Source: Kalymmatonema hyalinum WJT4-NPBG1 (lineage in GTDB: Bacteria; Cyanobacteriota; Cyanobacteriia; Cyanobacteriales; Nostocaceae). Taken from it: 64,000 nt of DNA. The first letter of the stretch is position 1. Every line of letters starts with the position of its first letter. The DNA is taken from contig JAHHIB010000038.1 of assembly GCA_019359075.1 (NCBI GenBank), positions 1 to 64,000 on the forward strand, read 5' to 3'. Below, one piece after another: positions 7,550 through 46,576 of the stretch. The translations under genes were made by a program, and so were the position numbers. The notes beneath the pieces are model-generated. The model did not search any database, had not been told where the DNA came from, and saw only the letters and a list, made by a program, of their open reading frames with translations.

Positions 7550-7567
7550 TAGTCCCTTGTTATTTGT

Positions 7568-9068: not shown

Positions 9069-9189
9069 GTACTATTTGTAAAAGTTGAGAAATATTGACA
9101 ATAATTATTGATTATTTTAGTATTTCAAAAGGAATTAATTGAAAAAAATTGGCAATTTGATTTTGCTGTAAAGTATCAATAATAACACC

Positions 9190-13330: not shown

Positions 13331-13536
13331 CATTTTGAATTGTTTGTAGTGATACTTGGCTGACATTTTACTCTCAGTTAAAACTTTAAAGTGAGTAAGC
13401 AGTGAACAAAGAGTCAGGAGTTAAAAGTTGGGTGAACCTGGATTGCCTGAGTTTTAACCCCTTGACTACGAATCAACAAACCATAACTCATCACTCATTA
13501 GTTAACAAACTTCGACGTATTACTAGAATTAGCAAC

Positions 13537-13977
13537 ATGATGCAAGAACTTGACCAGAAAAAAACAATCGACCTGCTAAACTCAATCATGGAGTGTGAGC
13601 TAGCAGGAGTAGTGCGTTATACTCACTATTCCTTAATGGTAACTGGTCCTTACCGGATTCCGATTGTGGATTATTTTAAAGCACAGGCTAATGAGTCTTT
13701 ACTTCATGCCCAACAAGTCGGAGAAATTCTCACAGGTATAGAAGGACATCCCAGCTTGAGAATTTCTCCCATCGAAGAAAGTTATAAGCATTCAATCAAG
13801 GATATCTTGGCAGAAAGCTTAGTTCACGAAAAAAAAGCACTTGAATTGTACAAAGACCTACTTGAAACTGTTAGCAATGCTAGCATTTATATCGAAGAGT
13901 TTGCCCGTAATATGATTGGTCAGGAAGAGATGCATAATCTCGAACTGAAGAAAATGTTACGCGATTTCACTGAATAG
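13537..13977 (+). CDS. Ferritin-like diiron protein (bacterioferritin/Dps-type four-helix bundle)
   Basis: From ATG 13537 (or 13540) the product has 146 residues, the size of one ferritin-like bundle. The GTG 13402 frame would add 45 residues without helical or signal character. Metal-ligand pattern is visible: Glu in MECELAGVVRYTHY (helix 1), E-LLHAQ (NESLLHAQQ, helix 2), E-LVHEK (helix 3) and EEMHNLELKK (helix 4). Such proteins oxidise and store or buffer iron. It sits between the HHH lipoprotein and FTR1, so it may handle iron delivered by that route. It lacks a signal peptide and should be cytoplasmic. Confidence 0.75.
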   Translation: MMQELDQKKTIDLLNSIMECELAGVVRYTHYSLMVTGPYRIPIVDYFKAQANESLLHAQQVGEILTGIEGHPSLRISPIEESYKHSIKDILAESLVHEKKALELYKDLLETVSNASIYIEEFARNMIGQEEMHNLELKKMLRDFTE

Positions 13978-25061: not shown

Positions 25062-26633
25062 TCAAGCCATCTGCCTTTCCCAGTAGTCAACAATGCGTTG
25101 ATTAACCTCCTTAAACAGCTTCCGCTTTGAATCCAAAACCCGTTTTTTCTTCAAAAAGTCAAGGAAACTAGCATGATAAATGCTGTAGCAAGTTTCTTCG
25201 TCTATTTCTTGTGGCTTCAAATACTCAACCCATTCCTTCAAAACCTCTTCTACCTCATAGATATCTTGCTCTGCAATATCGGCAATCATCTCAGAGGGAA
25301 TCGGCGTACCAATCTCCACTAAAATAAACAGGATAATCACCCTTAATTCCTTGGGTGCAGTATCCATCCCCATTTGTACCCAATGTTGTTGATAATAGTC
25401 CTCAAGACCATCGGGCAATTGCTTTAAGGTTAGGTCATTATAAAAACCGCGAGCAATTCCTGGTAAGATATACCGCAGGTACATAAAGTTATTTTCGCTT
25501 TTTTCTGCTACCTGCTCAATAAACATTTCATCATTGATATTGCGTTCTCTAATCCACTTTTTCAAATCATATTTATACTCTGGGTCTTCATTAATAAATA
25601 AGCCAATATACTCTTCCACATCATCACGGCTTAAACCTACATACTGACTCGCCCTTAAATCCAACTCTTCCATTGGAACACCAGGAGACACAGATAATCG
25701 CTTTGTCTCTTTAGTATATGGGCGTCTGGTAAGTAGGAAATAGACCTGTTCTGGAAGCGCCGTAGGTAAATATAAAAGATTATCCCCTGATTCTTGCTCT
25801 ACTTCATCAAGCGCATCAACCATAATTACCAAACGTTGATTGGGAAGAAGTTTTTTACTGACTTTTTCCAGCAAAGTTGGTAAATCAGCTTTCTCTGCAT
25901 TCTGCAACTGGTAACGCTTAATCAGTTGTTGACGAATACTTTCCAAAAACTGTTCGGGGCGATCGCGACCCTCAACGCGAATATTAAAATAGCAAGGAGA
26001 CTTGTGGTCAAAGACGTATTTAGCAGCAATGGCACTTTTCCCCATTCCCGCATCCCCTATAACTGTAAAGTAACCGTTGGAGTTGTTTTTCAAGAATTGA
26101 GCAAAAGCTTCAAAAACAAATTCACGACCGCAAAAAGACCGAATCTTTTCTTTGATTAATGGTTTAAACTCCTCTGGATACTCATCCAGATTCCAGTCTG
26201 GGTAAGGCTGCAATTCTGCTGATTTCGTACGTTGTGCTACCTCGATAAAAACTTTTCCAAACTCTTCTAACTCTGTACGTATTTCTATTCCCGCTTCTCG
26301 TATCTCATTTCCTAAAGTATTCCACTTCAAAAATTTTTCGACTTCCTTTAAAAAACCTAATGAATTCTTTGAAGTATAAGCTTGCCAAAAAGCGTTTTTA
26401 ATCTCTTTTTCTCTAAAAAGTTTAAGAATTGGCTCAGGCTTATACACCCCATACTCTACTAAAGCGTAAGCATAAACACCATCAACATCTTTGGGGGGTT
26501 GTGTTGGGTCAAGTTTCAAACTTTTTAAAACTTGGATGACAGTTTCGTTACGCTGCGCTTGATTGATGACTAGGGTTGCAGCAGGCTTAGCAAAAGGTTT
26601 AATCGCACTAATTACGGGGTCAATATTTATCAT
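25062..26633 (-). CDS. STAND/NACHT-like NTPase, N-terminal half of a split WD40 receptor
   Basis: A 523-residue protein from ATG 26633. Residues 1-150 are helical with no recognised effector domain (MINIDPVISAIKPFAKPAAT at the start). An NTPase follows, with P-loop GDAGMGKSA (193-201), Walker B VIMVDALDE (269-277) and sensor YFLLTRRPY. A winged-helix and helical segment (YHASFLDFLKKKR, near 490) precedes the end at FKEVNQRIVDYWERQMA. In intact homologues that segment continues directly into the helical arm and WD40 repeats found in the next gene. There is no propeller of its own. It is convergent with the HTH/NB-ARC STAND-KirBac pair. Confidence 0.8.
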   Translation of the reverse strand: MINIDPVISAIKPFAKPAATLVINQAQRNETVIQVLKSLKLDPTQPPKDVDGVYAYALVEYGVYKPEPILKLFREKEIKNAFWQAYTSKNSLGFLKEVEKFLKWNTLGNEIREAGIEIRTELEEFGKVFIEVAQRTKSAELQPYPDWNLDEYPEEFKPLIKEKIRSFCGREFVFEAFAQFLKNNSNGYFTVIGDAGMGKSAIAAKYVFDHKSPCYFNIRVEGRDRPEQFLESIRQQLIKRYQLQNAEKADLPTLLEKVSKKLLPNQRLVIMVDALDEVEQESGDNLLYLPTALPEQVYFLLTRRPYTKETKRLSVSPGVPMEELDLRASQYVGLSRDDVEEYIGLFINEDPEYKYDLKKWIRERNINDEMFIEQVAEKSENNFMYLRYILPGIARGFYNDLTLKQLPDGLEDYYQQHWVQMGMDTAPKELRVIILFILVEIGTPIPSEMIADIAEQDIYEVEEVLKEWVEYLKPQEIDEETCYSIYHASFLDFLKKKRVLDSKRKLFKEVNQRIVDYWERQMA

Positions 26634-27057
26634 TATTAATAATCGGTATAACTTTACACTTGTCACCCATTCTAACTGTTGGTGAAAGTGCGATCGCGAA
26701 GCGGGCGCTCTGCGGCATCGCCTTTATGCGGGGCTTTGCCCAATGCCCAAAGGGCACGCTACGCGAACGCGTAAGCCTGGCGGCACCGGAGGACTCAGCG
26801 GGCGCTCTGCGCGATCGCCATCATCTCTGGTCCGTCTTCTTCTCTTTCTCTGCGTCCTCTGTTGTCCTCTACGGTTAGTTTAAACTTGTTCGGGAGGCGC
26901 AAGACATTCCCAAGCGGAGCCTGAGAAGGAAAAGAAGACCGAAATCATACTGAAAGCAGAAGGCTACCTGAGCGCATCTATTTTCACAGGCAGATGTTGC
27001 TTTATCGTTAACCTTTTAAGTTTATTTAGTAAGAACGTAAATAGGAGAAAATACTGT
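26634..27057. repeat. Gene-free stretch dominated by a GC-rich HIP1-containing repeat
   Basis: Positions 26690-26825 are GC-rich with several GCGATCGC sites and a duplicated GCGGGCGCTCTGCG unit (26701-26714 and 26798-26811). Palindromic pieces include GGGCTTTGCCCAATGCCC. The remainder up to 27057 contains the promoter and ribosome site (AGGAG 27043-27047) of the BON gene. Open frames over the repeat are not genes. Confidence 0.6.
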
Positions 27058-27423
27058 ATGGGTTGGTTAAAAAGACTTTTTGGAATGGAAAAGCCCCAAA
27101 ACGCAGAAGTCAATCCTGCTCCACAAGCAGTACAGCAAGCGCAGCAAGCTGCTTCTCCTGCTGCAACTCAACAAATTGCCCCAGAACGTGTGGGATTGAA
27201 TGGAGAGTATGACCAAAGTGGTTTGGCTAAGCGAGTTGCGCTCGCATTTGACCAAGACCCACAATTAGATGATGTGGACACTCTCTGGGTTGCTCAGACA
27301 AGTGGAACTGTTGTGTTAAAAGGCAAAGTACCCAGCCAAGATATTCTCAATAAGATGGTTTCTGTAGCGCGTTCAGTGAATGGTGCAACTTCTGTTGATA
27401 CTAGCCAAGTTACGATTGGTTAG
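27058..27423 (+). CDS. BON-domain protein
   Basis: A 121-residue protein starting at ATG 27058, ten bases after AGGAG. The first ~45 residues are basic then Gln/Ala-rich and low-complexity (GWLKRLFGMEKPQ at the start). The rest is one BON domain (LAKRVALAFDQDPQLDDVDTLWV..., VVLKGKVPSQDILNKMVSVARSV, ATSVDTSQV). BON domains bind phospholipids or partner proteins and occur in osmotic-stress proteins such as OsmY or LysM-BON proteins. There is no signal peptide, so it is likely cytoplasmic or peripheral. A hairpin GGGGAGGGCATTGCCCACCCC at 27439-27459 just after the stop may terminate it. Confidence 0.8.
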   Translation: MGWLKRLFGMEKPQNAEVNPAPQAVQQAQQAASPAATQQIAPERVGLNGEYDQSGLAKRVALAFDQDPQLDDVDTLWVAQTSGTVVLKGKVPSQDILNKMVSVARSVNGATSVDTSQVTIG

Positions 27424-27518
27424 GGAATTTAGCCTATGGGGAGGGCATTGCCCACCCCACAGTAGCAATTGATAAGGTACGGCATTCAAAATAAAATAAT
27501 CCAGTGCGTAACAGTTTG

Positions 27519-28466
27519 CTACTGCTTCGACATTTCAGGAGTTAGAAACTCCTTGGTTTCACCAAAATGTTTGTGAATCCAATCTAAAATCACTTGATTT
27601 ACCAGTTCTGGGCGCTCGTCATGGGGACAATGTCCGACATCTTCCATACTATGCAGTTGCAAATTCTCGTTGTACTGAGCAAATTGACGAGCAAGTACTG
27701 GAGGAACAAACTTGTCCTTTTGCCCCCATATCAAAAGCATGGGCATTGTCAAGGTTGGTAATACTGTCTTAACACTTGGACCAAAGCTCGCACCCATTGT
27801 AGCTCTGAAAAGGGCGCTAAAAGCACGGGCAGAACCACGATCTTGGGTGGGACCAGCTAAAATTTCCACCAACTCATCAGTTACAGCTTCTGGATTGGCG
27901 TAGGCAATACCTGCCCATCGACGCAACACGCTGGGGCGGCGCACAACGCTAAAGACACCCTTGAGAATAAATCCAGAAGCAACAACAGATTTAATTCCTG
28001 CCACAACAGGTCGCAGCCAGGGAGGGAGAGCTTCTTGCTCCAACGATGGGTCAGGCAAACTCATCATCACCACACCCTGCACCATGTCGGGATGAGTAGC
28101 AGCTGCTGCCATAGCAATCAATGAACCGATAGAATTGCCCACCAATACCACAGGTTGACGAATGAATACTTTCCAAAAATCGTAGACCTGCTCCACCCAA
28201 AGCTCTACACTATAATTTGCTGTGGCTTTTTCAGAAGCTCCAAAACCCAACATATCAAGCGCGTAAACGGTGTAGTGTTCGCCCAGCACTTCTAAGTTGT
28301 GTCGCCAATGACCAATGGATGCACCAAACCCATGTAGCAAGATGAGGGGAGTCGTTTTTTGGTTATTTTGAGCAGGGCGAATGTACGTGTAGCGAGTTTG
28401 CCAGCCTCGCCAAACCCAGTCCCTTTGATTGCCAACCCGTTGCTGCCAATGCACTGCGCTATCCAC
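27519..28466 (-). CDS. Alpha/beta-fold hydrolase
   Basis: A hydrolase of 315 residues. I choose GTG 28466 because GGAGG lies five bases upstream; TTG 28478 would put the ribosome site inside the gene. The catalytic triad is readable: Ser112 in the elbow VGNSIGS, Asp in WGQKDKF (about 252) and His in DVGHCPHDERP (about 281). The oxyanion region is LLHGFGASIGHWR. Cyanobacteria and plastids carry close relatives of this plant-type family, some acting on chlorophyll derivatives or esters. The substrate here is unknown. It is convergent with the BON gene. Confidence 0.85.
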   Translation of the reverse strand: MDSAVHWQQRVGNQRDWVWRGWQTRYTYIRPAQNNQKTTPLILLHGFGASIGHWRHNLEVLGEHYTVYALDMLGFGASEKATANYSVELWVEQVYDFWKVFIRQPVVLVGNSIGSLIAMAAAATHPDMVQGVVMMSLPDPSLEQEALPPWLRPVVAGIKSVVASGFILKGVFSVVRRPSVLRRWAGIAYANPEAVTDELVEILAGPTQDRGSARAFSALFRATMGASFGPSVKTVLPTLTMPMLLIWGQKDKFVPPVLARQFAQYNENLQLHSMEDVGHCPHDERPELVNQVILDWIHKHFGETKEFLTPEMSKQ

Positions 28467-29014
28467 CCTTTCCTCCAAATTTATCGTATAGAAGGACTTT
28501 TGATTCCACTTTCTGAGTTAATCCCAACTCCTTGCAGCCAAATTTGTGCAAAGTTGTTATTCTAGTTTGCTTATAGAAGATAGTCTCTAAATATATTCTA
28601 GGGTAAGTACATTTTCATGTTTTTCTTTTAAGAGTTATTACTGATAACCCATGAACTCTAAAGTAGTTGAGACTACATTCTTGAAAAAGAAAATATGTAT
28701 GATAGAAAGTGCATAATTTCAGAGAATATACTGAAATAGCAAAACATAAATCAGTTGACAAAAAACAGTGACAATGGTTAAAGATTGCTACTATTATGTA
28801 ATTTAGATTAACCAGTGGACAGAAATCGTTTCAAAGTGAGTAGAATAGCAGATACAACGACGACGATGAAACTGCTCTATGGATTAGCTACCATATAACT
28901 ATAGGTTCCTTTTCGAGTCCTCAGTTATTTTCGTCTTTTGCTTCTGAGGCATACCAGAAACAAGCAAGCCAATTTCTTAACGAAAAGCTCCCACAAATCA
29001 TCCCACGAATCATA
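28467..29014. other. AT-rich gene-free stretch upstream of infC
   Basis: About 550 bases between divergent genes, presumably carrying both promoters. I see no RNA gene, and no clear leader hairpin of the kind found before some infC operons. Confidence 0.35.
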
Positions 29015-29548
29015 ATGTCTCTGATTGAAAAAAAAAGAACTCGCGATCTGCCCCAAATTAACGAACGAATTCGCTTCCCGAAAATTCGGGTTATTGATAC
29101 CGATGGTTCCCAGTTGGGAATTCTGACCCCACAAGAAGCAATACAACTAGCAGAGGAAAAAGAGCTAGACTTAGTGCTGCTTAGTGACAAGGCCGAGCCA
29201 CCGGTTTGTCGGATTATGGACTATGGGAAATACAAGTTTGAGCAAGAAAAGAAGGCACGGGAAGCTCGGAAGAAGCAGCACACTGCTGATGTCAAAGAAG
29301 TGAAGATGCGTTACAAAATAGAAGAACACGACTATAACGTACGAGTCAAGCAAGCAGAGCGTTTTCTCAAAGATGGCGATAAAGTCAAAGCAACAGTGAT
29401 GTTCCGCGGTCGAGAAATCCAACACAGCGATATGGCAGAAGTATTGCTCAAGCGAATGGCAACCGATCTGGAAACAGTTGGCGAAGTGCAGCAAGCGCCC
29501 AAAAAAGAAGGGCGAAACATGATGATGCTGATCTCACCCAAAAAGTAA
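29015..29548 (+). CDS. infC: Translation initiation factor IF-3
   Basis: A 177-residue IF-3 starting at ATG 29015. It begins [16 protein letters not shown] like other cyanobacterial IF-3 proteins. The N-domain ([46 protein letters not shown]) and C-domain ([36 protein letters not shown]) are both complete. IF-3 controls start-codon selection on the 30S subunit. No rpmI/rplT follow, consistent with infC standing alone here. Confidence 0.97.
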
Positions 29549-29678
29549 TCAACTAAGCAGGTAAGGCAGAGAGGACAAGGGGACAAGCAGATAAGGAAGA
29601 CAAGGAAGAATTTGCTTTCTTATCTCCCCCTCCTCCTCTTCAAACCTGCCCTTCCTACTAAAAATATGCTAATTTCAT

Positions 29679-29736
29679 TAGTCCTGAGTGCTGGGTGAGA
29701 AAGATAATACTCACATACTCAGGACTATAGTTTTTG
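29679..29736 (+). terminator. Hairpin with T-tract downstream of infC
   Basis: TAGTCCTGAGT (29679-29689) pairs with ACTCAGGACTA (29717-29727), the stem being extended inside by GGTGAG/CTCACA-like pairing, and TTTTTGTT follows at 29731-29738. It lies about 130 bases after the infC stop. The rest of 29549-29912 is unremarkable. Confidence 0.5.
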
Positions 29737-29912
29737 TTAGGAAATTGTTTGGTCATGCGATCGCCTTATACCGTTTCACTTTAAGGTTGATACTAATCGG
29801 GAGTAGAAACCACTCGATCACGGGGAAATAATTCTAGAAAAATCATTTGTATCAGGCATTGCCTGAAATGGTATTAGTATGCTGGATACGATTACTATTT
29901 CGATAGAAGCTT

Positions 29913-30238
29913 GTTTCTATCCCCGTTAGGCGAAGAGGTTATGTAAAGTCATTTGAGGCTAACGCATATGTCTATATCAGTCCAAAGGTTTCCATCGCCG
30001 TTAGGCGAAGAGGTTATGTAAAGAAATTTTCTAACCTGAAAAAATCGCCGCTGGCTTGTTTCTATCCCCGTTAGGCGAAGAGGTTATGTAAAGTCATTTG
30101 AGGCTAACGCATATGTCTATATCAGTCCAAAGGTTTCCATCACCGTTAGGCGAAGAGGTTATGTAAAGAAATTTTCTAACCTGAAAAAATCGCCGCTGGC
30201 TTGTTTCCATCCCCGTTAGGCTAAGAGGTTATGTAAAG
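29913..30238 (-). CRISPR. Orphan CRISPR array, 5 repeats and 4 spacers, two-spacer unit duplicated
   Basis: Five 36-base repeats start at 29913, 29988, 30058, 30133 and 30203; they run from GTTTCTATCCCCGTTAGG to GAGGTTATGTAAAG. On the minus strand the repeat ends GATAGAAAC, the usual 3' end of cyanobacterial repeats, so I infer minus-strand transcription. Spacers are 39, 34, 39 and 34 bases. Spacer 3 equals spacer 1 and spacer 4 equals spacer 2, with a 145-base period. Repeats 2 and 4 vary at CATCGCC and CATCACC, and repeat 5 has GGCTAAG. No cas gene lies in the window, so subtype is unknown (I-D or III style repeat). Confidence 0.85.
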
Positions 30239-30891
30239 AGTTCGCTGAGGAGTCTACCATTGCTCCTAGTGGCACAAATGTGGATTTGCGTACATTCAAG
30301 CAGGCGATCGCCAAAGCTTTAACTAAATCGCCGTAAGTCCCCCACTGCAACGGTACTCCATTCAGTGGTGGGATATAAGGCGGGAGACGAAGAAGACATC
30401 CCCGATTGATAATGACCTTTGGTCATTGAATGAGTGGGATGGCTGATAAGTCTCCTCTCTCCAGGAACACTTGACAAACCAATAAAGTCTATAATTCTAA
30501 TGCCCGTAGCAATAAGATGCTCTTGTGAGGCAACATTGGTGACGACCATCCACTTGACACAAACGGACTGGTAAAACAGGTGAACAGTGCAAACGTTGGG
30601 AAACGTAATAGACATAGAATTCGTTTGGATTCGCTACATACAACTTTCCGTGGGGCGTCAGGAAAGTATAAATTGCCTGTGGAGGTATCGGAACGTGGAT
30701 GTTGCTGTATGACTTGTTCTTGGGGCATCTGGAGTAACGACCAATGAAGCAGGAAATTTCTATGAGGCGACTTGTAGAAGCCCCCACCATAACGGTACTC
30801 CGTTTGGTGGCGGGAGAACGTCACCAGAACAAGCTACTGATTCGCAAATGAAACGAGAAACTAAATCCGATTGGGGCGAATAATTTAGCTG
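30239..30891. other. Degenerate region next to the CRISPR array, probably transposon debris
   Basis: No intact gene. On plus, 30241-30336 is open and ends in a plausible protein tail (NVDLRTFKQAIAKALTKSP). 30713-30883 is open and reads EAGNFYEATCRSPHHN, then GTPFGGGRTSPEQATDS, like a transposon-protein C-terminus. The AACGGTACTCC...GGTGG..GGGAGA unit occurs twice (30350-30390 and 30792-30817). Minus-strand frames of about 100 residues here show no protein-like features. I consider it the remains of an insertion sequence. Confidence 0.35.
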
Positions 30892-31857
30892 CTACTTCAA
30901 CGGGATAAAACCTACTCGTTGGACAACCTGTTGCCCGCGAGCAGATATAGTAAAATCAATAAATTGCTTTGCGGCTGGACTCGTTTTACCCGGCACGACT
31001 AAATAAACGACTCGACTAATCGGATAAGTCCCATCTTCGATAGCAGTTTTATCAGTGGGAGAAATGCCGTTAATCGGGATAAAGCGGACAGTTTTTTGAT
31101 TTTCTATCTGAGAAACCGTGCTGTAACTGATGCCGTTATCACCCAACGCACGTAATATCGAAGTGGTTTCATCTTTCTTGACTGTGGTGAAATTTGCACT
31201 ATCAGGTGCAAAAGGCTCCTCTAAAAGCACCACTTCCTGAAAGAATGTATATGTACCACTGTCTGGAGAGCGGTTAATCACTTTGATTGGCAGGTTGGGA
31301 CCTCCTACCTGTGACCAGTTGGTGATTTTCCCCTGAAAAATCCCCTTCAACTGTTCTATTGTCAATTCTCCTTTGTACGGATTGTTGATGCCCACTGCTA
31401 CAGCCAAAGCATCTCTTGCAATTGGGACTTGCACCAGTCCAGCTTGTGCTTCATCAGGTCTGAGGGGACGTGAACTGCCTGCCATCAACACTCTGCCGTC
31501 CTTCAAGTTTTGAATCCCTTTATTAGTGCCATTGGGGCTGCCATTTGGTAAGCCATAAGTTGTAGACAACGAAGGGTTCACCGGATTAAACGCAATTTGA
31601 AGCTGCTTCATCAAAGCCACTATCGTGACGCTACCATCAATACTTAGCACGTTTGGATTGGGCAAACTGGTATCCAAGCTTGAGGTGTCAAAAGCTTGAG
31701 GTGCGCCGCTTTGGGATGCAGAGGGTTGAGTCTGTTGCTTGAAACCGAAAGGCAAGCTACCCCGGAAGTACCAGACACCAAACCCTAGAAGCCCAAGAGT
31801 GATGAGCAGAGATAGCACCAAGGTGAGAGTTTCTCGATTATTGCTTCTTTTAGCCAT
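30892..31857 (-). CDS. PstS-like phosphate-binding (PBP superfamily) protein, membrane-anchored
   Basis: A 321-residue protein from ATG 31857. It has an N-terminal membrane anchor (about residues 11-30), a Ser/Gln-rich linker and a periplasmic-binding fold of the phosphate-binding type: VLSIDGSVTIVALMKQL, AGSSRPLRPDEA, INNPYKGELTIEQLKGIFQGKITNW, NRSPDSGTYTFFQEVV and DNGISYSTVSQI. The SGTY and GKITNW motifs are those of PstS. No pst permease genes are adjacent. It could be a stand-alone phosphate or oxyanion sensor or scavenger. The anchored form without a lipobox differs from classic PstS. Confidence 0.8.
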   Translation of the reverse strand: MAKRSNNRETLTLVLSLLITLGLLGFGVWYFRGSLPFGFKQQTQPSASQSGAPQAFDTSSLDTSLPNPNVLSIDGSVTIVALMKQLQIAFNPVNPSLSTTYGLPNGSPNGTNKGIQNLKDGRVLMAGSSRPLRPDEAQAGLVQVPIARDALAVAVGINNPYKGELTIEQLKGIFQGKITNWSQVGGPNLPIKVINRSPDSGTYTFFQEVVLLEEPFAPDSANFTTVKKDETTSILRALGDNGISYSTVSQIENQKTVRFIPINGISPTDKTAIEDGTYPISRVVYLVVPGKTSPAAKQFIDFTISARGQQVVQRVGFIPLK

Positions 31858-31972
31858 GTGGGATGTCAGTTATTGGGACTTTGCAATTTAGGCGATCGCC
31901 TCTGGCGCTGTGCTCTGCGCGATCGCGCTGCAACAATCCGCCTAATCGCTTCAGTAAATCGTTCAGATGGCA

Positions 31973-32416
31973 TTAAGCTTTAGTATTAGCTGGTAAAAAT
32001 TCGTTAAGTAGAGTTTTCAGATCAACGTTGCGGAGCCGAGCTAATTCTATCAGAGCTTCGGCTCTTTCAGCATCTTGATGCTCTACACGGTCTACGTAGG
32101 CTAATAGCTCTTGATGTTCAGCCTCAGTGATTTCTCCTGTTTCGTTACGCTGACGTAGATAAGCAAGCCGGGTTTCGTTATCTGGTGGTAAGCGACGTTG
32201 GATGATTTGCAGCAAAGCCTCCTCTTCAGGAGTTACCTCGCTCACCTCGCTAGTCTCTCTCCACAAAGGTTCTAAAAAGTCAACTACTTTAGTTAAAGTT
32301 TCTGCTGGTAATTTTTCAACTAGTGCGATTGGCTTTGCCACTGCCCCGTTCGGCTGAGCGCTCACGGCGAAGCCTTGGGCGATCGCTCTTTGGCGAATTT
32401 CTATTGGTGCAGTCAT
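31973..32416 (-). CDS. Small cyanobacterial hypothetical protein with repeat-derived insert
   Basis: A 147-residue soluble protein from ATG 32416. The typical part is VEKLPAETLTKVVDFLEPLW, then EEALLQIIQRRLPPDNETRLAYLRQRNETGEITEAEHQELLAYVDRVE..., a helical family abundant in cyanobacteria and often next to toxin-like genes; no partner is visible here. Residues 14-31 (QGFAVSAQPNGAVAKPIA) come from a GC-rich repeat inserted in frame. A HIP1-rich repeat also lies just downstream (31890-31950). Confidence 0.55.
   Translation of the reverse strand: MTAPIEIRQRAIAQGFAVSAQPNGAVAKPIALVEKLPAETLTKVVDFLEPLWRETSEVSEVTPEEEALLQIIQRRLPPDNETRLAYLRQRNETGEITEAEHQELLAYVDRVEHQDAERAEALIELARLRNVDLKTLLNEFLPANTKA
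32339..32395. repeat. In-frame GC-rich repeat insert in a small gene
   Basis: Bases 32339-32395 (GCCCCGTTCGGCTGAGCGCT..., HIP1 site at 32378-32385) encode about 18 residues that interrupt an otherwise conserved RAIALVEKLP junction, with IA repeated at both ends. The composition matches spacer repeats of this genome. Confidence 0.5.
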
Positions 32417-32876
32417 GGGACACCTGGATTAATTCATGCCTAGCTTGATTGTACTCAATGGTATGGGTCAAGAGGTTTGGGTGGGCGGTGTTTACCTTGA
32501 TGACTGGAAGTCATGCTTATACTGAGTTATTAGTTAATTTCAAATCAATATTGCTTTCGGACGGGGTTTTGTACCTGCTTTTTTTGTGGTGTAGTTGCGT
32601 CATTGTTGTCCCCGTAGGTTAAAAACTTGAGGCTATCTAAGTAAAGTCCACCTAAGCGAGCGATCTCTCTCAGTAGTTGTAATTTTTAGCACTTTCATAA
32701 GTTAGAGTACTTAAGAATATTTGTAATTAAATTCATATAAGTTTTAATATTTCGCTCCTGAAGGAATGGTGATGACTTTGTAGAACAGGGAAAGATATGT
32801 ATAAGGCGACTCAAGTGTTGCTGAGCAAATCTCTAGAAGCCTACCTTTGATCACTAATCACAATCAGGAGTATTTT
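32417..32876. other. Gene-free stretch before the glycine-zipper operon
   Basis: About 460 bases, presumably with promoters in both directions. AGGAG at 32866-32870 is the ribosome site for ATG 32877. No repeat, RNA gene or further open frame of interest was recognised. Confidence 0.35.
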
Positions 32877-33842
32877 ATGATTCCACTTATCTTGGGTGCT
32901 GTTGCTTTAGGGAGTGCTGCCTATGGAGCGCTAAAAGGTGCTGAAGGCGTTAACAACATGAATGATGCAAATGAGATTGGCAAGCGTGCTCAAAAGCGTC
33001 ACGAGAATGCTATCAGCAAGCTTCAAGCAGACTGGGAAGCGACCAACAAGCTGGCAGAAGATTATGGTCAACTCCAGATGAACGTCAAAATGCTTACAAT
33101 TGGTCGGTTTGTAGCGTTCATTGAGCGCATTGGTCAGCGAGCCTCTCAAAGTGATATGCAGTTTTTAGAAGGATTGGAAATATCAGTTCAAAAACTACAA
33201 GAGTATAAAGCTGCGGCTACAGAAGCTGAGCAATTTTTCAAAGGTGGAGTTAAGGCAGTGCTTGCAGGAGCTGCAGCTGGTCAAACTGTAACAGGTCTTG
33301 CAACGTCTGTCGGAGTTGCGAGTACGGGAGCAGCTATCTCAGGACTTAGTGGAGCTGCAGCTACGAATGCCACTTTAGCATGGCTTGGTGGTGGCTCACT
33401 AGCTGCTGGTGGGGGTGGAATGGCACTTGGTACTCTTGTTCTGGGAGGTATTACGGTTGGACCGGCCTTAGCAGTTGGTGGCTTTATGCTTGCTGGTAAA
33501 GGTGAAGAGGCTTTGACAAAAGCACGAGAATATGAAGCTAAGGTCAACACCGAAGTTGCCAAACTTGAAGCAGCTAGAGATTTTCTGGGACAGGTTCGAC
33601 GGCGAATTACTGAGTTAAGCAGTTTGGTGGAAGATTTGAATACTCGTGCAGTTTTAGCTCTCAACGATTTGGAATCTCGACCATTTGAGCGTAACCGTGA
33701 TGCCAACAAGTTTCAACAGGTAGCACTTCTAGTGAAAGCACTTGCAGAAATCATGAAAATCCCTGTTTTAGATAGTGAAGGGCAGCTAAACCCAGCTACT
33801 GCGACCATCCAAGCCAACTACCGTACTTTGGGAGGCAATTAG
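32877..33842 (+). CDS. Glycine-zipper membrane-active protein of unknown function (module gene 1)
   Basis: ATG 32877 follows AGGAG by six bases and gives 321 residues; the TTG 32847 frame is rejected. Residues 1-18 are hydrophobic, 25-120 form a coiled-coil-like helix, 124-207 are a Gly/Ala-rich hydrophobic region (TLAWLGGGSLAAGGGGMALG, then VLGGITVGPALAVGGFMLAG), and 208-270 are again coiled coil (EEALTKAREYEAKVNTEVAK). Such glycine zippers insert into membranes in toxins and envelope proteins. No family name comes to mind with certainty. The 132-residue gene follows after two bases, so the pair is one operon. Its role, for example as toxin-like effector or membrane-shaping factor, is open. 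Confidence 0.6.
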   Translation: MIPLILGAVALGSAAYGALKGAEGVNNMNDANEIGKRAQKRHENAISKLQADWEATNKLAEDYGQLQMNVKMLTIGRFVAFIERIGQRASQSDMQFLEGLEISVQKLQEYKAAATEAEQFFKGGVKAVLAGAAAGQTVTGLATSVGVASTGAAISGLSGAAATNATLAWLGGGSLAAGGGGMALGTLVLGGITVGPALAVGGFMLAGKGEEALTKAREYEAKVNTEVAKLEAARDFLGQVRRRITELSSLVEDLNTRAVLALNDLESRPFERNRDANKFQQVALLVKALAEIMKIPVLDSEGQLNPATATIQANYRTLGGN

Positions 33843-33844
33843 GG

Positions 33845-34243
33845 ATGTCTTTCAAGAAAGTTGCTTTCAACGAATTTATCAATCCTATTGAATGCCTGCA
33901 GCAAATGGTTTCAGCATATACCGACTATCTGAAGATAGCAGAGCAGGAAAAAACGAAGCGACGCGAAATTGATGCTTGGGAGAAAGCAACAATCGCCAAG
34001 ATAAACGTCCAACGAGAACTGTTGATGGCGTATCTTGATCGCTCGTTTGATGAACGTGCAGAAAATTTTCGCGCTTTATTTGCTGTAGTTGATAGTGCGA
34101 TCGCATCCGGTAATAATGAACAACTAGCCCTTACCTTGAATTCCATTACAGAAATAGCTAAAGCCAGCCCATTCAAAGAACTAGCTAACTTAGCTTCTGT
34201 CCGCGGCGCACTGGATGATCCAAACCACGAATGGACATTTTGA
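33845..34243 (+). CDS. Small helical partner protein (module gene 2)
   Basis: A 132-residue soluble helical protein starting at ATG 33845, two bases after the stop of the glycine-zipper gene, hence probably translationally coupled. It has no signal or membrane segment. Residues 28-75 (YLKIAEQEKTKRREIDAWEK...) are strongly coiled-coil, and the conserved-looking end is SVRGALDDPNHEWTF. I do not recognise the family. A chaperone, antitoxin or assembly partner for the first protein would fit the arrangement, but this is inference only. Confidence 0.55.
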   Translation: MSFKKVAFNEFINPIECLQQMVSAYTDYLKIAEQEKTKRREIDAWEKATIAKINVQRELLMAYLDRSFDERAENFRALFAVVDSAIASGNNEQLALTLNSITEIAKASPFKELANLASVRGALDDPNHEWTF

Positions 34244-34309
34244 TGTGATGGCTTTGCTTAAAAGAGTTAAGAGTTATAATTTTTGATTCTTAACTCCTAA
34301 CTCCTGCAA

Positions 34310-35779
34310 TTACTGCACGCGACAGAACTTACGCTGGTTATCATGCTGTGGGTCTTGCCAAGAATAAGCAAAATGACTGACTCCTGTGAGTTGGGGTGCA
34401 AGTTGGCGCATCGCCTGCATTTGCACTTCTAGTGGAGGACGATTGCTTATTGACTCTCCCCATTTACCAGCTAAAGCTGGAATCACTTGGGTACCTGGTT
34501 TTGCCAGGTTCAAAACCTGCCGCACTTGCGCCACAATACAGTCGGCACCGGCACAATTCGCATAAGCCATAGGATGCCACTCTAGGGTATTCGGGAACTT
34601 ATCCCAAGGTTGCAAGCGGGAATCATACCCTTGACCGACCATTTGGTTGCCATCAGGAAAAAATACCGCCCCTACTGGAATGCCTTGTTGCTGTGCTGGA
34701 TAAGCAGCTAGGGCGACAAAATCGAGGATGCCTTGCATTGCGTGGGCGACTGCTAACTGCCATAACTCAAATTGTAGTTTCGGTTGCCTTTGGGTTGGGG
34801 GAAGGATTGACTTTTGCTCTGCGGCTACAGCACGACCTTGCCACAACGGTTCTCCTTCTTGAGGATAGAGTTTATCGACCTCTCCTACATCTCCTGATGT
34901 GATATATCCCTTAGTTAAAAAGCGTCTAATCAATTCCAATCCTTTATAATTCAGCGCCCGTCGAAATAAAGCCTGTTGGGTCGCGTCACTGTACAGCCAT
35001 AAATCTGTGACTTTCGTGGCGATGGAATCACTGCCAGCCTGTCGTGGATAGCGCACGTAGTCAAAGAGTATCCCATCTGGGCGACGACGCAGCACTTCCT
35101 GTAACATTTGGTAGTAATCTCGTTTGGCTTGTAAGTTGTAGGGGTCGATAAATACCTGAGAACCGTTATCTACGACGTAGAGGCTGGTTTGACCTTTACC
35201 GTTGCGGGCGATCGCCCCTTCTCTATCTGAACGCTGGGCGTAAGTATAGCCAAAATTTGTTGTGAACATCCAAGCGTAAACCTTAAGACCGCGTTCCCGC
35301 CCTTTTTGAATTGCTGTGGCCAGCAAATCAGTCTTTTCTGTTCCTGGTGTGCGAATCACAGAAGGCCAAACTGTGGGGTTAGCGCCTGTCGGTAGTAAAA
35401 CTTGCCCATCATAAAAAACTTCCAAATAAACTTCGTTATAACCTCGGTTGACAATCCGATCCATGAGTTGGTCAACCACTCCCGCCTGAACATCACACGG
35501 ATACAAGCGCAACCAGATTGCTTGCAGCTTAGGCCAATTACGATTGCGGCATTCCTGCAAAGCTTGTGCGTGTTGTTGCAAAAGTTGCTGGTAACGAACC
35601 TTTTGCTCTTGATTGCCTTTGAGTGCAGACAAACGTAAGTTTTCTTTTTCTTGCGCTTGAGGAGGTGATAAATGGCAATACTCTGTGAGTTGCGCCGCTG
35701 CTGGCTGATTCCTCAAAAAGGGAATCAACAAACTACTGCTAAAAATGGCAGCAGCAAGCAAGCGTCGCCAAAAGAACAT
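34310..35779 (-). CDS. Family 10-type (GHL10-like) glycosylhydrolase, exported
   Basis: A 489-residue protein from ATG 35779, chosen because it begins directly with a signal peptide (MFFWRRLLAAAIFSSS... ending AAAQ); ATG 35812 and GTG 35854 are possible earlier starts. The TIM-barrel-like core shows IWLRLYPCDVQ, EVYLEVFYDG, RERGLKVYAWMFTTNFG, GILFDYVRYPR and DFVALAAYP, matching GHL10/DUF187-type hydrolases. The acid residues in FDYVRYP and the Trp/Asp-rich loops are likely catalytic. Predicted to act outside the membrane on an unknown glycan. A Gln-rich N-terminal helical segment precedes the barrel. Confidence 0.7.
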   Translation of the reverse strand: MFFWRRLLAAAIFSSSLLIPFLRNQPAAAQLTEYCHLSPPQAQEKENLRLSALKGNQEQKVRYQQLLQQHAQALQECRNRNWPKLQAIWLRLYPCDVQAGVVDQLMDRIVNRGYNEVYLEVFYDGQVLLPTGANPTVWPSVIRTPGTEKTDLLATAIQKGRERGLKVYAWMFTTNFGYTYAQRSDREGAIARNGKGQTSLYVVDNGSQVFIDPYNLQAKRDYYQMLQEVLRRRPDGILFDYVRYPRQAGSDSIATKVTDLWLYSDATQQALFRRALNYKGLELIRRFLTKGYITSGDVGEVDKLYPQEGEPLWQGRAVAAEQKSILPPTQRQPKLQFELWQLAVAHAMQGILDFVALAAYPAQQQGIPVGAVFFPDGNQMVGQGYDSRLQPWDKFPNTLEWHPMAYANCAGADCIVAQVRQVLNLAKPGTQVIPALAGKWGESISNRPPLEVQMQAMRQLAPQLTGVSHFAYSWQDPQHDNQRKFCRVQ

Positions 35780-36303
35780 TGATTTTGCAACATTCAAAGG
35801 ACAGTTGGGCATACGTACAAGTCGAAAGACAGAACAATCATCAACCTTAAGCACTATTACTTAGGATGATGTGTATCGAATTCTATGATTCAGAAATAGG
35901 GGTTTTGAAGCCTACATTGTATCGACTGCCAAACCCCTATTTCTGTTGCCGAATTTTGTTTGTTATTCAGCTTACTGGTATCCTCTGCTTACCTCCTCAG
36001 CTTTCTGGAGCGTCCTGTTGCGGTTCATTTATAAGTAATATTTAACTAGCAAAGAAGCATTGACAGGAAATTATTATGCAATGTTGGGATGCGCCCATTG
36101 TTTGCTATAATACCAGAAATATTTTTGTGGTATGCATAAGCTTTTATTAAATCGGGCAAGAAAACCGCATCCCGCAAGTGGAGTGCGTCTGACTTTTTTG
36201 ACTTGATGATGTTACAAAAACATTACTGAGTCTAGAGTTAAAGCTCAACAGTCAAAACTTTGGACTCTAGACTTTGACTTGAAATTGTGCGTAGCAGTTA
36301 TAT
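35780..36303. other. Gene-free stretch with two perfect inverted repeats
   Basis: CAGAAATAGGGGTTT (35891-35905) is exactly complementary to AAACCCCTATTTCTG (35931-35945). AGTCTAGAGT (36229-36238) is complementary to ACTCTAGACT (36264-36273), the latter 31 bases beyond the psb27 stop and a possible terminator for it. The rest is AT-rich without features. Confidence 0.5.
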
Positions 36304-36702
36304 TTAAGCACCACGCTTTAACGCCGCTTCTACCTGCGCAAACTCCTTCTCTAAACGGTCTTTAAGTTTTTTTGGCACAGGACGATTTGGATAAGAACTA
36401 TAATGTCCCGCTAGGGAGTTAAGAGCAGTTCGCATGGTTGTGAAGGAAGCTAGACCAAAAAGAGAGCTATCCCGCTGGTAGCGAGCTGCAAAGTCATTGA
36501 TTTTCTTACGCGCTTCTGCTTGAAATGCTGCTTTATTTGATGAATCTTCTGGTAACTCTAAAGCAGTCCTCAAAGTCGTAACTATAGCTAAGGTATCTTG
36601 ACGATAATCCCCTGTTAAAGCACCCGGAGTGCTGTTACAGCCCATCAAACCAATAACGACAACCAAAACTAGGGGAAGCAGACGTGACCAATAGCGCTTC
36701 AT
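36304..36702 (-). CDS. psb27: Photosystem II assembly lipoprotein Psb27
   Basis: From ATG 36702 the product has 132 residues with a lipoprotein signal (lipobox GLMGC, Cys22) and the four-helix Psb27 fold: DYRQDTLAIVTTLRTALELP, AEARKKINDFAARYQRDSSLFGL, SFTTMRTALNSLAGHYSSYPNRPVP and KDRLEKEFAQVEAAL. Psb27 is a lumenal lipoprotein that binds CP43 in immature photosystem II and allows assembly of the manganese cluster. ATG 36708, two codons upstream, is an alternative start. The gene stands next to cofH on the same strand with a 129-base gap. Confidence 0.93.
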   Translation of the reverse strand: MKRYWSRLLPLVLVVVIGLMGCNSTPGALTGDYRQDTLAIVTTLRTALELPEDSSNKAAFQAEARKKINDFAARYQRDSSLFGLASFTTMRTALNSLAGHYSSYPNRPVPKKLKDRLEKEFAQVEAALKRGA

Positions 36703-36830
36703 AAGCATCAAGTGAAACAATACCTAAATCAACGTCCATCGTATCTTGGATTGGTATCATGGGGATCATCTCATAGGGGGACAGGGTATAGGGTACAGCA
36801 GAATTGAACCCATAACCCATAACCTATAAC

Positions 36831-37970
36831 CTAACGTTCCACTTTTCGATACAAAGTATCACGTTGTTGGTAGGGACGTCCTAAGTCGGTGATAGCAGCT
36901 TGTAAGGTTTCGACTGACATATTAGTACCACCTTGAGCGCCTGCCATTGTCGTGATATGTTCTTCCATTAATGTGCCACCGATATCGTTACAACCCGACA
37001 ATAAAGCTTCTGTTGCACCCAAAAGCCCCAGTTTTACCCAACTCGGTTGATGGTTAGGAATCCAATTTCCCAGGAAAATCCGTGCTACAGCGGTTAGTAG
37101 CAGTGCGTCTGTCAAAATGGGTTGGTCGTGTCCCACACGGCGACGTAAAGGTTTGGGTGCTTCTTTGCCAACAAAGGGTAATAAAATAAACTCAGTCATA
37201 CGGGCAGGATACTCCCGGTGGATGGCAGTTTGTTGGAGACTTCGCAATTTTTCCAAATGCTTAATCTGTTGTTCTGGCGTTTCAATATGCCCTGATAGCA
37301 TTGTGCTAGTAGTGTGCAAACCTAGTCTATGAGCTGTACTCACAATTGAGAGCCAAGTTGCTGTGTCGATTTTTTCTGGACAAAGAATACGCCGCACTTC
37401 ATCATCTAACACCTCAGCTGCTGTTCCTGGCATAGAGTCAACACCAGCATCCCGCAAAGCTATAATGACATCGGCATACTCCAGTCCGTCTTCTCTTGCT
37501 ATGAATTGCACTTCTTGAGGAGAAAAAGCGTGTAGATGCAGTTGGGGAAATTCCTGCTTAATAGTTTCCACAAGCTTAAGATAATAAGGCAATGATTTTC
37601 CGTTCAGCTGCGCTTGTGGGTTTAACCCTCCCTGCATACAAATTTCCGTCGCACCCCGTTGCACCCCATCTGTCGCTTTTTCCAAAATTTGCGCCCAGTC
37701 TAACCAGTAAGCACCCGCCTCTGTTTCGTCTCGCCGGAAGGCGCAGAAACTACAGTGCTGTTCACAGATGTTACTGAAATTGATATTACGGTTAATGATG
37801 TAAGTAACAGTGTCACCCGCTTGCTGTTGACGTAGTTTGTCAGCTGTAGCGCGAATGGCGGCAAGTGCACTTTGGTCAGTTTGTTTCAACAATATCACTC
37901 CCTCTTCGGGAGACAAGTCGTACCCACTCAAGGCACGGTCAAGAGTAGCATCAACAGTTACAGTAGACAC
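36831..37970 (-). CDS. cofH: FO synthase subunit 2 (CofH), radical SAM
   Basis: A 379-residue radical-SAM enzyme from GTG 37970 with the cluster motif CEQHCSFC (Cys69, Cys73, Cys76), SAM-binding features (CMQGGLNPQ) and the C-terminal [10 protein letters not shown] segment of CofH. With CofG it makes 7,8-didemethyl-8-hydroxy-5-deazariboflavin (FO), the antenna chromophore of some cyanobacterial photolyases and precursor of F420. cofG is not in this window. The length matches the single-subunit form, not the fused FbiC. Confidence 0.92.
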
Positions 37971-38016
37971 AGTTTATCAAAAGCGAACCACATTTCTTAT
38001 TCTGACAATGTTCTTG

Positions 38017-39270
38017 CTAATTGGCATTATTTCGCCTCAGCACAGAATTTATTGAGCTTGGCAGATAATCTAAAAATATCCAGATACTAAACCCTAAAAT
38101 TAAAATATTTCTCAAATTTAACCATAAAATTTTAACATAATCAAGCTGGCGAAAACTACCAAATGACGCCATTATATAGGTAGTTATACAAATAGCTAGC
38201 ATCAAAATAGCGTGGCGTGGTTTTAATAGCGCAGCAAAAGGAATGATCCATACTATATATTGAGGTGAAAACACCTTATTTGTAATAATAAATATTAACA
38301 AAGCAAGCAGTGTGTAAGCTACTAAGCTATCCACTTTCATCAATTCACTTTTAGAGCGTTCTTCTCGAAAACGGTACCAGCAACTAACTAACATGGAAAT
38401 GTAGAGAATAATTAATAACAGGGGCAATACAGCCAGGACTATATCATCTAAAGGAGAAACTATATTCCGTGAACCGTAGCCAGCAACTGTTTTAAGTTCT
38501 ATTAATCCCCACTTGTGCACCAAGCTAATTATTCCAGCAGATAATGATTCAATTTGTAAACCCCGTTCTTTATGGTAATCCAAAAAGGAAAACAGCTTGT
38601 CTTTGGTAGTGATGAAAAATGGTAAAAAACTTAGAAAAACTGCACCAAGAGTTCCCAACCATATATTTAGAATGGCACGGTAGGATTTATTCGTAAAAAA
38701 ATAAACTGTAAAGACGGGAAGCAACATCAAAGGATAAAGTTTCGCAGCTACACCCAATCCAAGAGAAATACCTGCTAAGGTAGGACGATTAGATAAGACA
38801 GCAACTAAAGCTACAACTGTTAATACTGTAGGAAATAAATCATATCTCCAGAGTAGAACTGGTGAAACTATTAATGTAAATAATGTGTAGAAAACTAAGA
38901 CTCTTATTCTTTGAGGTTGAGAAGCATACACTGATACCACTCGTAGTAGGAGCAGCATATTTATTGTGCTGAATAATATGTTTTCTAACAAAAATAAAAA
39001 GGCATATATATAATAATTCTTTGCAAGCCCTAATGCTACCAGTCTCGGTAAAACAAACGGTAAGAGGGCAAATGGCGGGTATTCTAAATTAAAATCTCGA
39101 TAGGGCAATTTACCTTCTAGTAAGTAAAGCGAAGATCTGTAGTATATATTTAAATCATGAGTCCCCACCATCTTAAAAATAGTCAAGAGACCTACAATAA
39201 GTAGCCCTAACACTTGGATTGCTACTATCCAGGATATCCGTCTCTGAATTTTTCTTTCTTCGAGTAGCAT
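38017..39270 (-). CDS. GT87-like (DUF2029) membrane glycosyltransferase
   Basis: A 417-residue membrane protein of about ten helices from ATG 39270. It shows the GT87 features YYRSSLYLLEGKLPYRDFNLEYPPF (acidic D/E in the first loop), GVAAKLYPLMLLPVF and NKVFSPQYIVWIIPF. GT87 enzymes are GT-C transferases that use polyprenyl-phosphate-linked mannose or related sugars. It forms a same-strand pair with the GT39-type gene upstream (36-base gap), likely one operon for surface glycan building. Confidence 0.75.
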   Translation of the reverse strand: MLLEERKIQRRISWIVAIQVLGLLIVGLLTIFKMVGTHDLNIYYRSSLYLLEGKLPYRDFNLEYPPFALLPFVLPRLVALGLAKNYYIYAFLFLLENILFSTINMLLLLRVVSVYASQPQRIRVLVFYTLFTLIVSPVLLWRYDLFPTVLTVVALVAVLSNRPTLAGISLGLGVAAKLYPLMLLPVFTVYFFTNKSYRAILNIWLGTLGAVFLSFLPFFITTKDKLFSFLDYHKERGLQIESLSAGIISLVHKWGLIELKTVAGYGSRNIVSPLDDIVLAVLPLLLIILYISMLVSCWYRFREERSKSELMKVDSLVAYTLLALLIFIITNKVFSPQYIVWIIPFAALLKPRHAILMLAICITTYIMASFGSFRQLDYVKILWLNLRNILILGFSIWIFLDYLPSSINSVLRRNNAN

Positions 39271-39306
39271 ATTTTTAGACTCTATTACTTTAAATATTTA
39301 CGTCGG

Positions 39307-40908
39307 TTAATTTTTCTTCTTTAGCCGCCACAGTCTCCCGTTTTTGTAAACATTATCAAGAATGAATGTCTTTTCCAGGTCTGATTTAAATTTTTTAGAG
39401 GGATTATATAAAAAGACATCACTGAAGCCATCAGCAATTTTGGGTATATTGGGTTCTGTGACTAACTGTATTTGCACGTTTGATTTTAGCAAATGACTCA
39501 GAGACATGATATCTCCAATATTAAGGGAATAATTACTACTGATAAAAAGTGGTTTCATGGAATTATTGATTATTCGAGCTATTTGGGGATTGGCGTGACT
39601 TCCTTTATTCCACCATGTCTCTGCTTGGGAATTAACTGCACAGGATAAAACTCCAGTGGAAATAACTGCTACCAAAACTAAGTTCCAAAATCTGCCTTTT
39701 AGCACTTTATTAGAGATAATGTGGCTGGCTAATAAGTAAGCAACAGCTAGTTGAATCCCTACATAACAGGGGATGATGTATCGAGAGCGAAGACTCAGTT
39801 TGCCCCCAAGAATAACATCATTTAATATGAGAGCTAAAGCAGGCACTGCAGATAAGGTAAAAATAAATAGCCAAACTTGTTTTTCAGTTCGGCGGTATAT
39901 AAAATAAAAAGAAAATACCACCAATATGAGTAGTAAGGGAACTAGATATCGACCCCAACGCAAACCAGGAATATCTAAATTTGGAAAAAAGGGTTCATAG
40001 CGCCAAAAATCACCAAACAAATAACTGTTATTACTCGTCCACCCTGTGAGTAAAGCTGATATTGATTGTCTTTTTTGAGCGCTGCTTGTTGTCTGTTCGA
40101 CTTGCGACAAGTTATTAAGAAGAACTAAAATCCAAGGTACGAAAGCGAGAAAACCAGCACTTGCTGCAACCAAGTACGCTTTAACGAGTTTAGTAAATCG
40201 AAAGCCTTGAATAACAAATACGTAGATACCGTGAGCAAGCGTCACCAACGCAGAAAACAAGAATGTGTACAGCCCTAGTGTTACTGTAATGGCATACATC
40301 ACCCAAAGCCGTTTGCTACCTAGCCGGATTGCTCGTAGTAGTATCACACTTGCAAGTAAGATAGTCACCGTCCATAAACTGAACTGCCGTGCTTCTTGGG
40401 CATACAATACATGAAAGGGAGAAACGGCTAAAAGTGCGACAGCCATCCATCCTGTGATTCGTGATTCAAATAATTCTAGACACAGCCAATAAATGCAAGG
40501 AAACGCAAGCAAGCTAATGATTGCTGATAGGCTTCGGGTGACTGCGATTGAATTTCCTAAAATTTGCACCCATAATCTTACGAGTACGTAATAAAGTGGA
40601 GGATGCTGAGCATCTTCCACTGCTAAAGAATTGATTGTGTCAATGACACCTTTTTCTGGATTAGGGTACTGATACTTCCTGACAGATTCAACACCAATGA
40701 CTTGTCCGTTAAAGACTTGCTGGACAAACTCCTTCTTAGTGTAACCAGACATCCGTAGTCCAGTGTAAGCCTCATCGTGCCAGTAGACTTTTTGCTCAAG
40801 ATTAACGAAGCGAAAAAATATCCCCAAACATAACAAAACAATAATGAGAACCCTAAGCCAAGTTGTTAGTTGTCTTGGGAAGAGCCGTTCTCTACTGGTT
40901 GTTCGCAT
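39307..40908 (-). CDS. GT39/ArnT-like membrane glycosyltransferase
   Basis: A 533-residue protein from ATG 40908 with about 11 membrane segments. The first periplasmic loop carries the acidic motif WHDEAYTG (about 43-50) expected of GT-C enzymes, followed by QHPPLYYVLVRLW and LYAQEARQF, typical of the PMT/ArnT/GT39 group. The C-terminal part is a soluble extracytoplasmic domain. The donor is probably polyprenyl-phosphate sugar; the acceptor is unknown. It belongs with the GT87 gene downstream. Confidence 0.8.
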   Translation of the reverse strand: MRTTSRERLFPRQLTTWLRVLIIVLLCLGIFFRFVNLEQKVYWHDEAYTGLRMSGYTKKEFVQQVFNGQVIGVESVRKYQYPNPEKGVIDTINSLAVEDAQHPPLYYVLVRLWVQILGNSIAVTRSLSAIISLLAFPCIYWLCLELFESRITGWMAVALLAVSPFHVLYAQEARQFSLWTVTILLASVILLRAIRLGSKRLWVMYAITVTLGLYTFLFSALVTLAHGIYVFVIQGFRFTKLVKAYLVAASAGFLAFVPWILVLLNNLSQVEQTTSSAQKRQSISALLTGWTSNNSYLFGDFWRYEPFFPNLDIPGLRWGRYLVPLLLILVVFSFYFIYRRTEKQVWLFIFTLSAVPALALILNDVILGGKLSLRSRYIIPCYVGIQLAVAYLLASHIISNKVLKGRFWNLVLVAVISTGVLSCAVNSQAETWWNKGSHANPQIARIINNSMKPLFISSNYSLNIGDIMSLSHLLKSNVQIQLVTEPNIPKIADGFSDVFLYNPSKKFKSDLEKTFILDNVYKNGRLWRLKKKN

Positions 40909-41772
40909 TGGTAAAAAACAAAGTATCTAGCTCCGTTTATTTTCGGCTGTTTATAGCAGGTGTGTCAAAAGTTCGAGTGTAATAGATAATAAATACTTAT
41001 AGTTTACATAGTTTGGCGAATAATAACAAGAATTTGTAAATTTTGTTAAAACTTTACAAAGCTGGTATCAAACATACACCAGCATGGCGTCAGAAGTCAG
41101 AGATGGAGACGCTCCGTCAAGGAGTCAGAAGTAAAATTTGCTCGCTTATCTGGCTCTTGAGTTGAAAAGGTGTAGCTCAATAAAGATGCAAACTGCTGTA
41201 GTTATTTGAAATACTGTTTTCCGGACAAACGTGAATCAAATACTTGTTGCAAACAAGAAAACATAAAACGTATCTTAAATAACTTATATAAAAATATTTC
41301 TCTATCAAAAACCTGTTTAAATAATGCAATATTATATCAGTTGTCAACTAAATTATGATGAGACTTGACAAACCATATTTTTTTTATTTGGATAAAATAT
41401 AACAAAATTTCATCTATTTTTCATATTTTGGGAATTGTGTAAAGAGTAAATTAAGTAATTTTTTTTCCAAATCCGAGTGCTATACTTTGCTCATATTGGT
41501 GGTTGCAGCAAGAAAGTTGTTTGGAGTAACTACACTTCAAAAAGCAGGGCGGCAATAGAAATTCATTTGCCAGTTGGTGCATTACCTTGTATAAAAAATC
41601 ATTTGCCAATCGGTGCATGACCTAGTGAAAAAATAAATTTTTGGGTATAAATTGCTATTACTCTAATTCGAGTAAAAGGTTTTACTCTTAATTCTTTATG
41701 CAAATTTAGCGCCAGCTTTTGGTAATTCCTACCCGAAGGTAGGAGAAATTTTGTATTGATAACTATTTAAAG
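40909..41772. other. Long AT-rich gene-free stretch between divergent glycosyltransferase genes
   Basis: About 860 bases. A Nostocales-type repeat piece GTCAGAAGTCAGAGATGG...GTCAGAAGT lies at 41090-41130. An imperfect tandem repeat, TCATTTGCCAGTTGGTGCAT / TCATTTGCCAATCGGTGCAT, lies at 41562-41620. Otherwise AT-rich DNA, probably holding both promoters. Confidence 0.45.
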
Positions 41773-43149: not shown

Positions 43150-43452
43150 CTACGTACAACTTCTTTGAAAGGCGAATAGTATCAAAAATACTAAGATTTG
43201 AGAAATGCTTTTTTAAAATAGAATTGCTCAAATTAAGGATTAGAAAATAACCTGAGCTAATACTTGACATTGTCGTTATATTATGTATGTTTAATTGCCC
43301 ACATATTTTTTGGTAGTAAGGACAAGAGCCCTTGCGATATCAACCAAAGAGGACTAAAGTCCTCACTAAGAAATTATTCAAGGTTGTATTACCAGCCTTG
43401 ATATTATTTACAAAATTAGTGAAAATCTCTTTCTCAAATAATCATTATCTAA
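43150..43452. other. Gene-free stretch with a 16-base palindrome
   Basis: About 300 AT-rich bases. GAGGACTAAAGTCCTC at 43349-43364 is a perfect palindrome of a type common in Nostocales spacers. Nothing else is seen. Confidence 0.4.
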
Positions 43453-46552: not shown

Positions 46553-46576
46553 TCATTAGTCATTGGTCATTAGTCA

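Follow-up and report, generated by a model that had tools for sequence, protein, structure and literature searches.

The array at positions 29913-30238 is best explained as the remains, now decaying, of a remote CRISPR array from a cyanobacterial type III (III-D/III-B-like) system, without an effector and with a duplicated spacer block, a reading to which we assign a probability of roughly 85%. It lies in a 64,000-nt stretch of DNA from Kalymmatonema hyalinum WJT4-NPBG1 that was analyzed as a whole (hereafter the window), and it consists of five 36-nt repeats separated by two spacers in the order S1-S2-S1-S2 (Table 1), with spacings of 75, 70, 75, and 70 nt between successive repeat starts. 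As the initial annotation had stated, the two copies of S1 (39 nt) are identical, as are the two copies of S2 (34 nt), and the array has a period of 145 bases. Tandem Repeats Finder recovers this period with 98% matches and a score of 639, far above chance, and the two 145-base units (29909-30053 and 30054-30198) differ by a single mismatch, at column 10 of the repeat (G in R2, A in R4). R3 is the same as R1 in sequence, and R5 departs from both at columns 6 and 20.

Table 1. Features of the array and its flanks, in window coordinates; the minus strand, where given, is inferred.
Feature	Position	Strand	Remarks
Repeat R1, leader-distal	29913..29948	-	T6 and C19 off class consensus; hairpin weakened
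Spacer S1, first copy, 39 nt	29949..29987	-	No protospacer found; no self-target
Repeat R2	29988..30023	-	Pairing with C19 regained through G10
Spacer S2, first copy, 34 nt	30024..30057	-	No protospacer found; no self-target
Repeat R3, junction repeat of the duplication	30058..30093	-	Same as R1
Spacer S1, second copy	30094..30132	-	Identical to first copy
Repeat R4	30133..30168	-	One base from R2
Spacer S2, second copy	30169..30202	-	Identical to first copy
Repeat R5, leader-proximal	30203..30238	-	Hairpin broken
Tandem duplication, 2 x 145 bases, 1 mismatch	29909..30198	.	GCTTGTTTC at both outer edges
Probable remnant of conserved leader end	30239..30253	-	8 nt as in L016 and L017; up to ~15 nt by eye only
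~507-bp dispersed repeated element	30318..30824	.	79 nt from last repeat, where rest of leader expected
Short dispersed intergenic repeat, leader-distal side	29765..29877	.	70-100% identity, whole or in part, in many places

Judged by its sequence, this is a genuine CRISPR array, because its repeat belongs to a class known in relatives: each of the five copies has 2 mismatches in 36 positions to the consensus GTTTCCATCCCCGTTAGGGGAAGAGGTTATGTAAAG of a cyanobacterial type III-D/III-B repeat class. A search of 217 genomes of the family with a 29-base pattern, allowing up to three mismatches, found the class in 28 of them, our own included, some with a single match. At column 19 all five of our repeats carry a C, whereas all 246 distinct repeats of relatives that were compared carry a G. 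Each of the five also matches the Rfam family CRISPR-DR37, with scores under the gathering threshold of 40 bits (30.3 to 18.5 bits; E values of 0.0009 to 1.2). CRISPR arrays are defined by near-identical repeats and unique spacers of similar length, and here the spacers are unique except for the block duplication. Could the element nevertheless be a non-CRISPR tandem repeat or a false CRISPR? It has just two distinct spacers, which alone could pass as a tandem repeat, and missing spacer diversity is among the published warning signs of false CRISPRs (PMC5294841). The probability of this explanation is, however, negligible, given that 24 arrays of the repeat class with 181 spacers occur in the 26 relatives' regions scanned, that these arrays share a leader, and that a type III operon sits between such arrays in one relative. 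The case carries a caution of its own, in that an array with just two distinct spacers can be genuine.

The block R-S1-R-S2 would have been copied in tandem by slipped replication or unequal crossing-over. GCTT, the four bases to the left of R1, is identical to the end of S2, and hence GCTTGTTTC is found at both outer edges of the duplication; this 9-base identity, common to the left-flank/R1 and S2/R5 junctions, is the probable site at which the duplication took place. The initial annotation took the variants in repeats 2, 4, and 5 to reflect divergence since the duplication. This is borne out for the difference between R2 and R4, which arose after the event. R5, however, sits at the outer edge and was not copied in the duplication, so its differences from R1 and R3 need not be younger and may be older than the duplication.

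An assembly artifact, in which the true array would have a single S1-S2 unit, might be suspected in a draft of 174 contigs when the unit repeats nearly exactly. We consider it quite unlikely: assemblers usually collapse, rather than expand, near-exact repeats, and the two unit copies differ by one base. In addition, tandem copying of spacer-repeat units is a known event in CRISPR arrays, as described in two published accounts (PMC11472070, PMC8047081). The relatives' arrays described above, each with at least two spacers, contain no exact within-array spacer duplicates in the 26 regions scanned, and one survey places about 3% of spacers among duplication candidates and 86% of these candidates among simple duplications (PMC11472070). 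The duplication is thus unusual for the repeat class and ordinary for CRISPR arrays, although it involves all spacers of a tiny array, compared with ~3% of spacers for spacer-block duplications in general.

Neither spacer has a convincing protospacer in IMG/VR (seed patterns), INPHARED, or PLSDB, so the comparison with phage, plasmid, and self sequences proposed in the initial annotation yielded no convincing target. In IMG/VR, seeds of 17-20 bases taken from the halves and middles of the two spacers were found in 0, 2, 0, 5, 0, and 0 viral contigs. In the DNA of these seven contigs the best ungapped placement reached at most 22 of 39 positions for S1 and 23 of 34 for S2, and the seed matches are hence taken as chance. 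INPHARED returned eight records for S1 and seven for S2, and PLSDB none for S1 and 43 for S2; in both collections the matches listed have E values of at least 0.9, with none covering 80% of a spacer. A 24-base core of S1 had no record in the genome_contigs collection, from which our own genome was possibly left out. With up to three mismatches allowed, S1 and S2 are also absent elsewhere in their own genome. The whole array has no match among the phages searched and matches one plasmid record, via its repeats. Arrival of the array on a phage is likewise unsupported, as an exact search with a 26-base core of the class, a pattern that does not cover all of its variants, matched 0 viral contigs.

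The link between the repeat class and type III systems comes from relatives. In one of them (G092), arrays of the class stand on both sides of an operon encoding Cas10/Cmr2 (TIGR02577), Csx10 (TIGR02674), and Csx7-type RAMPs, with 4 of the 10 proteins scanned giving no family match; its Csx10 identifies this operon as type III-D. Direct linkage of the repeat class to cas genes was seen in this one relative only, and tblastn with 16 Cas proteins (E values up to 1e-5) gave no match near the arrays at the other relatives' loci, including 20 + 5 further regions. Across the family, leaving out our own genome, 16 of the 27 genomes that have the repeat contain a Csx10 above cut-off, versus 67 of the 189 that lack it, a modest association (Fisher p 0.02) among species that are not independent. 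Given the G092 operon, this tally, and the III-B assignment made in Nodularia (see below), we assign the array, on sequence grounds, to a type III (III-D/III-B-like) repeat class and leave its subtype unfixed.

The genome-wide check for cas genes and further arrays that the initial annotation had called for returned two type I-D loci and no other copy of the repeat in the 8.4-Mb assembly (up to three mismatches). Within the window, tblastn with 21 Cas proteins from our genome and G092 gave no match at E values up to 0.01, and family searches place Cas1 and Cas6 on contigs other than that of the window; together with the RAMP family search, these results uphold, for the Cas families covered, the earlier statement that the window has no cas genes. 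In the genome as a whole, a 95.45% complete draft of 174 contigs, neither a RAMP protein (PF03787) nor Csx10 (TIGR02674) was found, for which reason we do not count the array as belonging to a functional type III system. In a draft of this completeness and contig number, the assembly may lack a type III locus. The array thus far appears to be an orphan at the level of the genome, in keeping with the initial description of an orphan array whose repeat-spacer-repeat-spacer block was duplicated in tandem. Of the three genomes of the genus, one (G085) has both the repeat and Csx10, one (G086) has neither, and our own has the repeat only; loss of the effector in our lineage is the simplest reading of this distribution.

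Of the two I-D loci, the one on contig 22 contains the genome's single match to Cas1, a I-D-type one, together with Cas3' of type I-D, a Cas6, and a 901-aa protein without NCBIfam match in the position of Cas10d. Its array, with 54 exact copies of a 21-base core, is built on a different repeat, GTTGAAATTTCATTAACTCCCTATTAGGGATTGAAAC. The second locus, on contig 138 (L046, 72000-91999) at 3757-13819, encodes Cas3', Cas10d, Csc2, Csc1, and Cas6; no array was detected across the 34 kb inspected.

The leader probably lies on the right, starting from 30239, with the array on the minus strand and read leftwards. To the right of the last repeat, 21 of 32 relatives' flanks (a few of which are one array seen in two loci) start with AGTT, followed by a shared stretch of ~60 nt; two more (L027 and L039) are leader-like by eye, and the remaining nine show no such leader. 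Degenerate left-end repeats occur in several relatives. The side of the leader and the degenerate ends point to leftward transcription, a direction that agrees with the orientation printed for the Nodularia repeat. Our own right flank keeps AGTTCGCT, identical to the sequence in two relatives (L016 and L017); beyond these first 8 nt the similarity to the leader is not significant, with 80 of 1000 shuffles scoring as well.

The ~507-bp element beyond this leader remnant has further copies in our genome and in G086 (L059, L062, L064, and L061), and similar short motifs are seen near both of its ends. It has no Rfam match, and the one frame tested has no Pfam match. In the congeners G085 and G086, the interval between infC and the next gene contains neither the array nor this element. 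Compared with G085, the segment private to our genome runs from about 29814 to 30872, its left end overlapped by the short dispersed repeat at 29765-29877. An open frame that follows R5 (KEFAEEST...) was rejected as a candidate: 18-21 of its residues match longer frames (E 0.003-0.1), most of them ~1000 aa in length, from 31 of the 216 relatives, and one such longer frame that was scanned has HEAT repeats, but because the frame ends inside the dispersed element we treat it as weak or accidental. Elsewhere in the window, heptamer tandem repeats are present at 44780-44807, 46549-46581, 59194-59227, and 62265-62298; short repeats of this kind are common in filamentous cyanobacteria.

Predicted folding indicates that the hairpin is clearly weakened in four of the five repeats. 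On the inferred transcript, the predicted energies are -9.9 kcal/mol for the class consensus, -9.1 for R2, -7.2 for R4, -5.8 for R1/R3, and -3.6 for R5; on the other strand, they are -10.6 for the consensus, -9.8 for R2, -4.7 for R1, -4.4 for R4, and -1.8 for R5. With a G at column 10, R2 regains the pair that C19 disrupts, and the column 10 base of R4 permits wobble pairing when read from the minus strand. These column 10 changes may be due to chance or may be a trace of earlier selection, and the pair-restoring change in R2 could indicate that the array stayed functional for some time.

The pairing retained in R2 and R4 is one of several observations that would fit continued use of the array in trans, with a I-D-linked Cas6 processing its transcript and the crRNAs loading into a I-D complex or acting in regulation. 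The genome has two Cas6 genes, one of its I-D loci has no array within the region examined, and a homologous cas-less array is transcribed in Nodularia (PMC5853447). However, the other I-D locus has an array with a different repeat, our own leader is nearly gone, most of the hairpins are weakened, and the spacers have no self-target at up to three mismatches. Hence, we regard use in trans as unlikely. A more specific version, in which a leader-stripped, effector-less type III mini-array would be kept as a putative source of small RNAs trans-processed by the I-D Cas6, is highly unlikely; if it were true, the restored pair in R2 and the doubled spacer pair would reflect selection for the dosage of two guides.

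Under the preferred reading, that of a decaying type III remnant, two spacers would have remained in the array before the block was duplicated. Decay would be recorded, in no set order, in the effector that was not found, in a leader gone except for ~8-15 nt, in the 507-bp repeat 79 nt away, and in the eroded hairpins. Such an array would most likely acquire no spacers, be transcribed poorly or not at all, and provide no immunity. The array is ordinary, its duplication is of a known kind, and it opens no new system. It does, however, offer a small and clear example of CRISPR memory dying, in which no effector is found, the leader is lost, the repeats are eroding, and a spacer block has been duplicated by recombination.

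Among known systems, G092 (L048; taken as Nostocales cyanobacterium LEGE 11386) resembles our array in its 36-nt repeat of the class, in the side of the leader and its first bases, and in spacer length (31-42 nt, compared with 39 and 34 nt for S1 and S2). In contrast to our five repeats with almost no leader and no effector found, it has two arrays flanking the operon on one side (16 and 3 repeats) and more on the other, with full leaders and a cas operon. The linear plasmid pC052_H of Nostoc sp. C052 (NZ_CP040280.1, L127) shares the repeat class, has a leader starting with AGTTCACTTCTGG and a degenerate left-end repeat, and lacks annotated cas genes over the 19 kb displayed (PLSDB annotation being incomplete), just as none was found by our array. 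Unlike our array, it is located on a plasmid with protelomerase genes, its repeats are one mismatch from the consensus except for the end repeat, and its spacers are all different within each array copy. The stretch at 25253-44291 of NZ_CP040280.1 looks palindromic, with the array and protelomerase on both strands, perhaps from read-through of a hairpin end.

For Nodularia spumigena UHCC 0039, two repeats are printed, of which CTTTCCATAACCTCTTCCCCTAACGGGGATGGAAAC belongs to the class and is given in the direction that we infer. This repeat is assigned with a III-B locus that is kept in that genome, and transcripts come from the cas-linked and the cas-less array alike (PMC5853447). This genome is thus like ours in having one array of the class without associated cas genes, and unlike ours in that the III-B locus has been retained and both arrays are transcribed.
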